A DNA stretch of 64,000 bases from Bacillus gobiensis (GTDB lineage: Bacteria > Bacillota > Bacilli > Bacillales > Bacillaceae), in NCBI RefSeq assembly GCF_001278705.1, contig NZ_CP012600.1:3473917-3537916 (forward strand), written 5' to 3'. The notes beneath the pieces were generated by a model. The model searched no databases. It saw nothing but the letters and a program-made list of their open reading frames with translations, and had not been told where the DNA came from. The position numbers and the translations under genes are program-made. Shown here piece after piece: positions 2,440 through 5,339 of this stretch. Every line of letters begins with the position of its first letter. Positions within the stretch are counted from its first letter, which is position 1.

Positions 2440-4515
2440 ATGAATAAGAAAAAGATATTCATCTTTTCACTCGTCTTTGTGCTGTGTATCGCTTCTGGCA
2501 TAACCACTTATTATATAGTAAAACCCAAGCAAGAAGCACAGCAAAATGATAATGTAACTAAACCACCAGTTCAAGCTAACAGTTATTATAACGAGCTGTA
2601 CCGGCCTCAATTCCATTATTCACCAGAGGCAAACTGGATGAACGATCCGAATGGAATGGTTTTCCATAAGGGTGAATACCATTTGTTTTATCAGTACCAT
2701 CCTTACGATGCGAAATGGGGACCAATGCATTGGGGACATGCAGTAAGTAAAGACCTTGTCCATTGGGAGCATCGTCCCGTTGCATTTACTCCGGATCATA
2801 ATGGAGACATCTTCTCTGGCAGTATTGTTGTTGATCACAACAATACAAGCGGATTTGGCAAGGATGCACTCGTTGCCTTATACACGCAAAACAAAGATGG
2901 CCATCAAGTCCAGAGCTTGGCCTACAGCACGGATGACGGAAACACATGGACAAAATATGAAGGCAATCCGATTATGAAAGACTTTCCTGATCCGGATTGG
3001 CGTGATCCGAAAGTCTTTTGGCACGAAGAAACAAAATCATGGATTATGCCTTTAGCGGCTAAAGATAAAGTGATGCTGTATACGTCACCAAACTTAAAGG
3101 ATTGGTCATTCGCGAGTGAATATAAGCCGCAAAACGCGAGCGGAGCAACACTATTGGAATGTCCTGAACTTTTCCCTCTCCCGGTTGACGGAGAAAAAGA
3201 TAAGCAGAAGTGGGTTTTGACAACCAGCTTGGGAGATGGAGCGATTGCCGGCGGCTCAGGGATGGAGTATTACGTCGGAACTTTTGACGGCAAGACATTC
3301 ACACCTGATAAACCGGAAGCCGAGTGGATCGATTACGGTGCTGACTTTTACGCTGGCGTCACATGGGAAAACGCGCCGAACAACGATCAATACCGTACCA
3401 TGATTGCCTGGATGAGCAACTGGAAGTATGCAAATGATACTCCGACATCTGCTTGGAGAAGTGCAATGACCGTTCCGAGAAAGCTTGAATTAAAAACGTC
3501 CCAAAATGGCGAGGTTAAGCTGGTTCAATCACCGATTCAAGAATTGGAGACGCTTCGCGGCAAAGAAAAATCATATCCATCTCAAGTGATCAAGCCGAAC
3601 ACCAATTTTTTGGCGAATGCAAAAGGTGATACAGTTGAGCTCGTTGCCGACTTTAAGGTAGACGAAATGACAACTTCAAAGGCATTCGGTTTCAGGGTAC
3701 GAAAAGGCGATGATCAAGCAACTTCGATTGGATATAACAATGAGAAGAAGACAATTTATCTCGACCGTTCTTTCTCAGGAGAAAGTTATTTTAATGATCA
3801 ATTTGCCAAAGTTCATGAAGCGCCGTTAGAACCCGTTGATGGACATGTGAAAATGCGTATTCTCGTCGATCGTTCATCCGTTGAACTCTTCGGCAATGAC
3901 GGTCAAGTATCCATTACGGATCAAATTTTTCCTAAGGGGTCAAGTGACGGGATAGAGCTCTTCTCAAGCGACGGGGACGTAACCCTTGAGTCCCTTCATG
4001 TCTATCCGCTTAACCGCATATGGGGTAACAGTTTGTTTCATTCAAATCTGAGCGGATGGGAAGCGTTAAATGGCCGATGGGCAGATACCATTTCGGGGAC
4101 ACAAGGCAGCGATACAGTCGACTCTTTTAAACTAGCAGATTCAAGAGGAAAAGATTTCACGTACGAAACAGATGTAAAGATAGGAAATCAAGGTGCTGGA
4201 GGCCTCGTGTTCCGCTCTGACAAAACAGCCAAAAATGCGTATGTCGCAACAATTGATCAACCCGGACAGATGGTGAAACTTTGGAAAAAAGTGGACGGTG
4301 AAGCATCAATTTTAGCTACGTATCCCGCTAAAATTGATCCTGAAACGACAAATCACTTAAAAGTCACTACAGAGGGTAAAGAAATAAAGGTGCATTTTAA
4401 TGATCAATTAGCGATCCGAACCAAAGATAATTCGCTCTCTTCCGGTTATTTCGGCTTAAATGTCTGGAACGGAACGAGTACCTTTCAAAACGTGAATACC
4501 TATCCGAAGAAATAA
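2440..4515 (+). CDS. sacC: Secreted levanase/exo-fructosidase (GH32) with CBM66-like module
   Basis: A 691-residue extracellular beta-fructosidase hydrolysing levan, inulin or sucrose to fructose. Residues 1-28 form a hydrophobic signal or anchor segment. The GH32 five-blade propeller carries all three acidic motifs: WMNDPNG (nucleophile Asp69), WRDPK (Asp189) and the acid/base in ECPEL (Glu240). A C-terminal beta-sandwich from about residue 530 (SLFHSNLSGWE to the end) resembles the fructan-binding CBM66 of Bacillus subtilis SacC, which has nearly the same total length (677). The start has a good AAAGGAGA Shine-Dalgarno. No LPxTG sorting motif or lipobox is visible, so release or N-terminal membrane retention are both possible. 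It is divergent from a sugar ABC transporter that probably imports the released fructose. Confidence 0.95.
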   Translation: MNKKKIFIFSLVFVLCIASGITTYYIVKPKQEAQQNDNVTKPPVQANSYYNELYRPQFHYSPEANWMNDPNGMVFHKGEYHLFYQYHPYDAKWGPMHWGHAVSKDLVHWEHRPVAFTPDHNGDIFSGSIVVDHNNTSGFGKDALVALYTQNKDGHQVQSLAYSTDDGNTWTKYEGNPIMKDFPDPDWRDPKVFWHEETKSWIMPLAAKDKVMLYTSPNLKDWSFASEYKPQNASGATLLECPELFPLPVDGEKDKQKWVLTTSLGDGAIAGGSGMEYYVGTFDGKTFTPDKPEAEWIDYGADFYAGVTWENAPNNDQYRTMIAWMSNWKYANDTPTSAWRSAMTVPRKLELKTSQNGEVKLVQSPIQELETLRGKEKSYPSQVIKPNTNFLANAKGDTVELVADFKVDEMTTSKAFGFRVRKGDDQATSIGYNNEKKTIYLDRSFSGESYFNDQFAKVHEAPLEPVDGHVKMRILVDRSSVELFGNDGQVSITDQIFPKGSSDGIELFSSDGDVTLESLHVYPLNRIWGNSLFHSNLSGWEALNGRWADTISGTQGSDTVDSFKLADSRGKDFTYETDVKIGNQGAGGLVFRSDKTAKNAYVATIDQPGQMVKLWKKVDGEASILATYPAKIDPETTNHLKVTTEGKEIKVHFNDQLAIRTKDNSLSSGYFGLNVWNGTSTFQNVNTYPKK

Positions 4516-4524
4516 AGTGAACCT

Positions 4525-4717
4525 TCAGTGGGGGCTTCGACGAAATAGGATGTGCTAGTGCAGGCCCCCGCACAGGATGCCTGAGTAACTAGCCTTCGTA
4601 CATTCGTCCCCCACTGACAAGTTTGGTTAAGCCAATCCTAACTTTTACGGGCAGCCCGCCCCCCACCTAGACATCTTTAGGATAACCTAAAGTCTTTCGA
4701 GGTGGGGGGCTTACTGC
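4525..4717. ncRNA. Candidate structured RNA or palindromic element (two large stem arms)
   Basis: A gene-free stretch with dense nested complementarity. Arm 1: stem 4525-4534 with 4608-4617 (10 bp), continuing as 4540-4544 with 4603-4607, then 4554-4559 with 4588-4593, then 4561-4565 with 4579-4583. Arm 2: 4651-4654 with 4714-4717, 4659-4668 with 4700-4709 (10 bp), and 4675-4681 with 4686-4692 closed by an ATAA tetraloop. Internal loops are asymmetric, and neither arm is followed by a T-run, so simple termination does not explain it. The GTGGGGG half of arm 1 could alternatively pair with the CCCCCAC of arm 2. It may be an independent RNA, a transposon-derived palindromic repeat, or the processed 3' end of the levanase mRNA. 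Strand is unknown. Confidence 0.5.
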
Positions 4718-4799
4718 TTGTAATGTGGTGAATTGATATGCAGCTGGAAAACAAAAATTCATGGTATTACTAAAGCTTATTCATTCAAATACAACACAG

Positions 4800-5150
4800 C
4801 TAAAGAGCAATATCATCTATTTCTTTAGGAAAATTAAAAGTCCCATCTTTTTTAAGCTCAAAATTAATTACTTTAAATACGGCATCCGCATGTAATGAAC
4901 CATAAATATGTGGATATAATTTTCCTGTCTCATATAAATCTTCGTAAATAATCTTAGCTTTGACTTTATTTGAGTCTATACACAAAAGTACCAGACCAGT
5001 ATGTCCCTTAAATAAAAAATTAGCTACTTCAATTACTTGCTCTTTTGTAGAACAATGTATAAAACCATCACTTTCTAAACTTGAGGGAGCATAAATACCC
5101 TTATCTTTCGCTTTTAACCATTCTTCATTATCAACAATATGCAGTATCAA
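4800..5150 (-). CDS. DUF952 family protein
   Basis: A 116-residue soluble protein with the DUF952 (COG3502) pattern: an N-terminal ILHIV, then APSSLESDGFIHCST, and LYPHIYG near the C-terminus. The family has no firmly assigned biochemical role; its fold has been compared with ADP-ribosyltransferases, which I mention only as background. The TTG start at 5150 follows GGAGG with 8 nt spacing. It stands alone, between the structured element at 4.6 kb and the divergent aldehyde dehydrogenase. The codon composition is noticeably AT-rich. Confidence 0.8.
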   Translation of the reverse strand: MILHIVDNEEWLKAKDKGIYAPSSLESDGFIHCSTKEQVIEVANFLFKGHTGLVLLCIDSNKVKAKIIYEDLYETGKLYPHIYGSLHADAVFKVINFELKKDGTFNFPKEIDDIAL

Positions 5151-5339
5151 TCTTAATTCCTCCCTTGATAATCATAATTAAATTATCACCACTAAAATTA
5201 GAAAAAATTTACATAATTTTCTCATTGTTTTAACGACATCGCAAGGAGTTTATTGTACAATGTCGAAAATGTAATATTGGAGGCTGACACATTACTATTA
5301 CTATCAATAATAAATCCAAATTTACAGGAGGATTTAAAA

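Follow-up and report, generated by a model that had tools for sequence, protein, structure and literature searches.

The kind of element closest to the one reported here is the bcr1-type repeat, TTTAT-flanked and MITE-like, to which we liken it by description only. In published accounts, bcr1–bcr3 (the group A Bacillus cereus repeats) are dispersed, intergenic, MITE-like and foldable, carry a TTTAT motif and often lie in untranslated regions (PMC6542083, PMC3446304, PMC2267715). The length of bcr1 is given as 147 or 167 bp (PMC2267715), and the first bcr element was reported to be restricted to the B. cereus group (PMC6542083, PMC3446304, PMC2267715). As far as those accounts describe them, the bcr1–bcr3 repeats and ours are alike in their TTTAT ends, their habit and a length near the 157 of our short form, a likeness of description; they differ in that the first bcr element is given for the B. 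cereus group only, whereas the present repeat is carried by many Bacillales and by less closely related members of the phylum. No plasmid record named for the B. cereus group matched the repeat, and an open-literature search with short oligos of it returned no paper title concerning it.

Here we describe a stretch of Bacillus gobiensis DNA directly behind a levanase gene. It is very probably a copy of a non-autonomous mobile palindromic (MITE-like) repeat, which goes into ATAAA sites (TTTAT on the complementary strand) in a fixed orientation and in this case landed on the levanase stop codon. The term window denotes the whole stretch of DNA that was analysed (64,000 nucleotides).

Results

Layout and fold of the window copy

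The repeat is composed, in order, of an ATAAA (TTTAT) flank, arm 1, the linker GTTAGTTGAACC, arm 2 and an ATAAA flank. The features of the window copy are collected in Table 1. The first-pass annotation had described a two-arm structured element of unknown kind at 4525..4717. This extent is too small, the unit being 4512-4733; a covariance model (R1), made from 47 copies of which three belong to the same genome and none is the window copy, matched 4512-4732 with 59.7 bits (E 4.7e-12).

Both arms fold as had been claimed. The RNA minimum free energy (MFE) of 4500-4740 was -99.0 kcal/mol compared with a shuffle mean of -68.0 (z -6.28), none of 200 shuffles was as low, and the main stems, the two of 10 bp, the one of 11 bp and the ATAA-capped one, were present in the MFE structure. 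The opposite strand of the same interval gave a folding z of -6.49. A second proposal, that the G-rich side of arm 1 could pair with the C-rich side of arm 2 to give two states, did not hold up: with this pairing forced in one register the energy was -68.7 versus -97.7 kcal/mol, and since the inter-arm pairing costs 29 kcal/mol in that register two states are unlikely, and the switch was rejected. The interval 4300-5300 contained 0 terminator-like sites; an intrinsic terminator, for which a GC-rich hairpin followed by a T run was sought in that interval, was likewise rejected.

The window copy has ATAAA at its 5' end only. With the 3' ATAAA and one loop stem gone, it appears to be decaying now.

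Table 1. Features of the window copy and its upstream gene (positions are those of the window)
Feature	Position	Strand	Basis
Levanase (GH32) gene, upstream	2440..4515	+	ORF list
Whole repeat element, long form, degenerate copy	4512..4733	+	CM R1 match; alignment of 16 own-genome copies
5' ATAAA flank (TTTAT on other strand)	4512..4516	+	Alignment of copies; parsed ends
Arm 1 basal stem, 5' side, pairs with 4608-4617 (10 bp)	4525..4534	+	MFE; covariation
Bacillaceae-1-like insert, decayed	4535..4607	- (RF01690 orientation)	nhmmer profile without window copy
Arm 1 basal stem, 3' side	4608..4617	+	MFE
Inter-arm linker, degenerate; family consensus GTTAGTTGAACCAATCGG	4618..4644	+	Alignment
Arm 2 outer stem, 5' side, pairs with 4714-4723 (10 bp)	4645..4654	+	MFE
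Arm 2 main stem, 5' side, pairs with 4700-4710 (11 bp)	4658..4668	+	MFE
Arm 2 tip hairpin, ATAA loop; 7-bp stem 4675-4681/4686-4692	4675..4692	+	MFE
Arm 2 main stem, 3' side	4700..4710	+	MFE
Arm 2 outer stem, 3' side	4714..4723	+	MFE
3' terminus; family consensus GCGGGATAAA, decayed to TGTGGTGAAT	4724..4733	+	Alignment; CM match

A dispersed family with covarying arms

When the genome, a single contig of 4.6 Mb, was searched at the DNA level, 17 matches appeared, among them one antisense match of the window's arm 2. The 16 copies, the window copy among them, had a common plan once those on the minus strand were turned: ATAAA, GTGAACCTTCAATCAGTGGGG, arm 1 tip, CCCCACTGATTG, linker, arm 2, GCGGG and ATAAA. 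They fall into long forms of about 218 nt, short forms of about 157 nt (157 model positions) and a one-arm form of 145 nt (L005). Scans with model R1, run with strict filters, an E limit of 0.01 and rough E-values, detected 42 matches in this genome (G000), namely 36 distinct places and 6 antisense shadows, and none in the 43 same-genus genomes.

The first-pass annotation had read arm 1 as closer in architecture to a functional RNA than to a terminator and had named a transposon-derived palindromic element as the alternative, to be favoured if a nucleotide search found many dispersed copies. The 36 distinct places are such copies, and together with the fixed end pentamer, the head-to-tail arrays and a copy-number difference at one site (see below) they make the alternative the better description. 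What stands of the functional RNA is that the arms covary and that the arm 1 tip shares homology with an RNA family of Rfam.

In an alignment of 47 short forms 95.5% of the cells of the consensus structure were paired, and both sides had changed in 15 of 28 pairs. On every measure all 500 shuffles fell short of this, and slid controls did so by far, a comparison in which the structures of the short and long forms are favoured over their slid versions, having been derived from the same alignments. The long-form alignment (20 copies, window copy included) had both-side changes in 14 of 25 pairs. Two adjacent G.A mismatch positions were read from the alignment in the basal stem GTGAAACT/AGTTGAAC. 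This covariation supports the arms, and the selected strand may be DNA or RNA. The compensatory base changes that had been named as a mark of RNA are therefore present, though selection on either nucleic acid would fit them; combined with the conserved linker, such strong covariation would fit selection on RNA too, a point against the mobile repeat.

Ends, arrays and movement

From 124 full-length copies, 85 could be parsed at both ends and 39, whose variant ends were missed by the expression, were left out; the printed ends of these 39 had ATAAA in most cases too. ATAAA was found at the 5' end of 70, at the 3' end of 59 and at both ends of 49 of the 85 parsed copies. A variant pentamer was mirrored at the opposite end in one of the 36 parsed copies that had such a pentamer, and that one lay within a tandem array. 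Since variant pentamers are almost never mirrored, the pentamer lacks the behaviour expected of a free target duplication. Weighed against the mobile repeat, a fixed pentamer is compatible with target duplication or with ends owned by the element.

All nine adjacent pairs of copies were head-to-tail with one ATAAA or ATAAG in common, although two of the arrays came from the same species and the pairs are not all independent. One orthologous site holds a single short copy in Psychrobacillus sp. NEAU-3TGS (L058) and two in tandem in P. lasiicapitis (L131). This single comparison records the gain of a unit and not a bare site, and no clean unoccupied site came to light for the window copy, which again counts against a mobile repeat. 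The ends, the arrays and the orthologous site fit orientation-specific insertion at ATAAA sites or recombination between them. The mobile repeat would move as DNA by a recombinase or transposase acting in trans, its arms would matter as DNA hairpins while it moves, and after insertion they would be passive 3'-UTR structure.

Which enzyme might act in trans was considered for one class. Elements of the IS200/IS605 type lack long terminal inverted repeats, have subterminal hairpins and use a T-rich pentamer as target, and REP/BIME elements can be likened to the repeat in the same three respects. The repeat could accordingly be a MITE or PATE derived from an IS200/IS605-type (Y1, HUH) element and moved by a Y1 transposase in trans: its anatomy, with subterminal hairpins and a T-rich target pentamer, fits, and adjacent copies all have one orientation. 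However, the Y1_Tnp family had no match in the genome, which weakens the mobile repeat as well by depriving it of this helper candidate; 16 repeat-bearing genomes had no Y1 match; and across 298 genomes, 202 of which have Y1_Tnp, repeat and Y1 presence were not associated (p 0.24 and 0.29). The link to IS200/IS605 raised in the first-pass annotation thus found no backing in these searches, and we regard a Y1-derived MITE as doubtful. A resident Y1-mobilised element was rejected, there being no Y1_Tnp match in the genome and the repeat not tracking Y1 presence. IS200/IS605-derived and REP/BIME elements share subterminal hairpins and a T-rich pentamer with the repeat and differ from it in that no Y1 match or co-occurrence was found here. 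Group A IStrons insert after TTGAT, ATTAT or TTTAT (PMC4227781), which agrees with a Y1 origin; because they use TTTAT among their sites, this target is not unique.

Landing on stop codons

The TAA stop of the levanase gene (4513-4515) lies within the 5' ATAAA flank of the repeat. The copy landed on this stop, and any read-through levanase transcript would therefore have it as a structured 3' UTR. We counted as a landing any ATAAA whose TAA is used as the stop of an ORF of at least 90 aa, with non-coding ATAAA at the same loci as background; ORFs were called mechanically and the copies are not all independent. Landings were observed for 14 of 96 named copies with an exact 5' ATAAA, against a background of 59 in 1640 (p 2.4e-5). 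For the own genome the count was 3 of 13, set against 8 of 145 sites in the window that served as background (p 0.049), an enrichment that is borderline under this strict count and to that extent speaks against the mobile repeat. A looser count, which took any xTAAx end, gave 15 of 101 named copies and 5 of 15 in the own genome. Stop-codon landings are enriched, and insertion preference or selection both fit.

Alternatively, the repeat may be kept for its function, as a bidirectional terminator or 3' stabiliser serving the convergent levanase and 116-aa downstream genes. Strong hairpins stand immediately past the stop codon, the ORF pair is convergent and landings at gene 3' ends are enriched. 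Nevertheless, no terminator-like site is present in 4300-5300, the repeat family is missing from the sister species (0 of 43 same-genus genomes) and the window copy is degenerate, and we consider such a role most improbable.

The best levanase homologues in the genus (13 loci fetched) were 53-55% identical. The own genome has nine matches to GH32 levanase, the gene in the window included, and three of the nine belong to a single frame of 1203 aa that lies shortly before the window begins.

Spread beyond the genome

Short-form DNA was present in 34 of 150 genomes, and a one-arm long-form query matched in 49 of 298, most of these matches covering the shared frame only; a sample of 249 genomes from the phylum yielded covariance model matches in 18 (the own genome is included in all three counts). 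A 31-base pattern occurred in at least 120 stretches of named genomes with at least 16 genus names, and the genera among the matches listed included Lysinibacillus, Psychrobacillus, Neobacillus, Cytobacillus, Niallia, Domibacillus, Sporosarcina, Peribacillus and Terrilactibacillus. Copies from six genomes of the same phylum and another class had ATAAA near their ends and a recognisable linker. The repeat family is spread through Bacillales and reaches genomes of the phylum that are less closely related. In one 2.8 Mb genome outside the window's class (G405; L216, L217), head-to-tail arrays of at least three copies had a spacing of about 145 nt.

Six plasmid records matched at E up to 1, one of them annotated as Klebsiella grimontii. 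This record, plasmid pNY3A (CP079755.1, 221561-221652; L214:3001-3092), contains a short copy with ATAAA at both ends, flanked on one side by the gene of a CPBP protease and on the other by a hypothetical one; the copy reflects either transfer between phyla or an assembly mix-up. Neither the window copy nor the insert matched in plasmids or phages when used as query, the short form had no match in phages, and a 25-mer of the long form had none in the genome contig collection. The sole viral-contig match of the insert pattern was judged by its surroundings to be a chance match and was rejected.

A Bacillaceae-1-like insert in arm 1

The arm 1 tip of the long-form window copy contains a stretch of about 66 nt with homology to Bacillaceae-1 RNA (Rfam RF01690). 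The nhmmer profiles, built without the window copy, matched 4545-4601 when made from 8 siblings (E 2.1e-15) and 4545-4598 when made from 11 copies of other species (E 3.1e-4). The window copy itself was unlisted for RF01690 at E up to 5 and is below the 35-bit gathering score; an Rfam gathering search of the window returned three tRNAs only. The Rfam search that the first-pass annotation had offered as a check thus leaves the window copy undetected and succeeds with a sibling (L010), which passes the gathering score of 35 with 37.1 bits. Among the 13 own-genome loci searched, L010 included, five others scored 22.9-30.1 bits, and seven, including the window copy, were unlisted. A low-threshold search of ten loci gave RF01690 at 35 bits or more in seven, with a maximum of 61.2 bits inside a long form (L086), and no match in L151, L153 and L166. 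Arm 1 of the first of the two P. lasiicapitis tandem copies (L131) matches RF01690 with 42.7 bits.

RF01690 also occurs outside the repeat frame, the frame being within 60 nt in 5 of 30 listed loci of relatives. Where it lies in the frame, the module is at the arm 1 tip, in the linker or on the 5' side of arm 2, and in the linker it has both orientations relative to the frame. RF01690 was commoner in frame-bearing genomes (47 of 61 versus 111 of 237, p 2e-5; two frame searches were pooled and the statistic ignores kinship). A pair of neighbouring Bacillaceae-1 matches occurs at L132:4101-4239 and another at L147:48-237, so modules can stack in one repeat. In a same-genus genome a free-standing module (L191:1501-1567) lies directly upstream of a possible 16S rRNA gene start, which we presume from the resemblance of the sequence that follows it. 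The long-form insert is homologous to Bacillaceae-1 RNA and several copies pass the gathering score; Rfam lists an sRNA gene, whereas here the module is nested in a mobile repeat and the window copy is below detection.

A report of CsrA motifs on Bacillaceae-1 is said to be by Gardner and Eldai. In a published scan, CsrA-binding motifs were reported on the reverse complement of Bacillaceae-1, with the strand uncertain (PMC4333381). The strand with these motifs is here the + strand, sense to the levanase gene. The module on this (mRNA) strand could then act as a mobile CsrA sponge, its two AGGA loops titrating or recruiting CsrA and the repeat spreading them into 3' UTRs. Besides the reported motifs, the genome of the window has a CsrA match, and of the 4 pairs in a hairpin with an AGGAY loop (helix 3, long-form alignment), 2 show compensatory changes. 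RF01690 was present in 4 of 22 CsrA-less genomes versus 155 of 289 with CsrA (Fisher p 0.0015), a pooled test that ignores kinship and in which search filters differed between the sets; in f23, one family largely lacking CsrA and chosen after the CsrA survey of 298 genomes, the numbers were 2 of 4 genomes with CsrA and 0 of 15 without (p 0.035). On the other hand, CsrA is nearly universal (286 of 298 genomes), RF01690 is present in 4 of the 12 CsrA-less genomes of that survey, two CsrA-bearing f23 genomes are without RF01690, the genomes compared are not independent, and linker modules can face either way within the frame. The stem of the first AGGA hairpin is gone from the window copy, where the second GGA is partly paired; this makes the copy a poor CsrA candidate even should the proposal be right for the family. 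Taken with these objections, the sponge is unlikely.

Discussion

A TTTAT-flanked repeat of the bcr1 kind extends beyond the B. cereus group. Bacillaceae-1, an orphan Rfam family, gets a partial home, the module being within the mobile repeat in the 5 of 30 listed loci, and this setting would go some way to account for its number of copies and for the doubt about its strand. Landing on stop codons makes the gain of a 3' UTR by insertion directly testable. It is a long shot that ATAAA-targeted repeats throughout the phylum install structured 3' UTRs on stop codons and also ferry predicted CsrA-binding Bacillaceae-1 hairpins. If this were true, a distributed CsrA sponge would be built and rebuilt through transposition, and not as a single sRNA gene.
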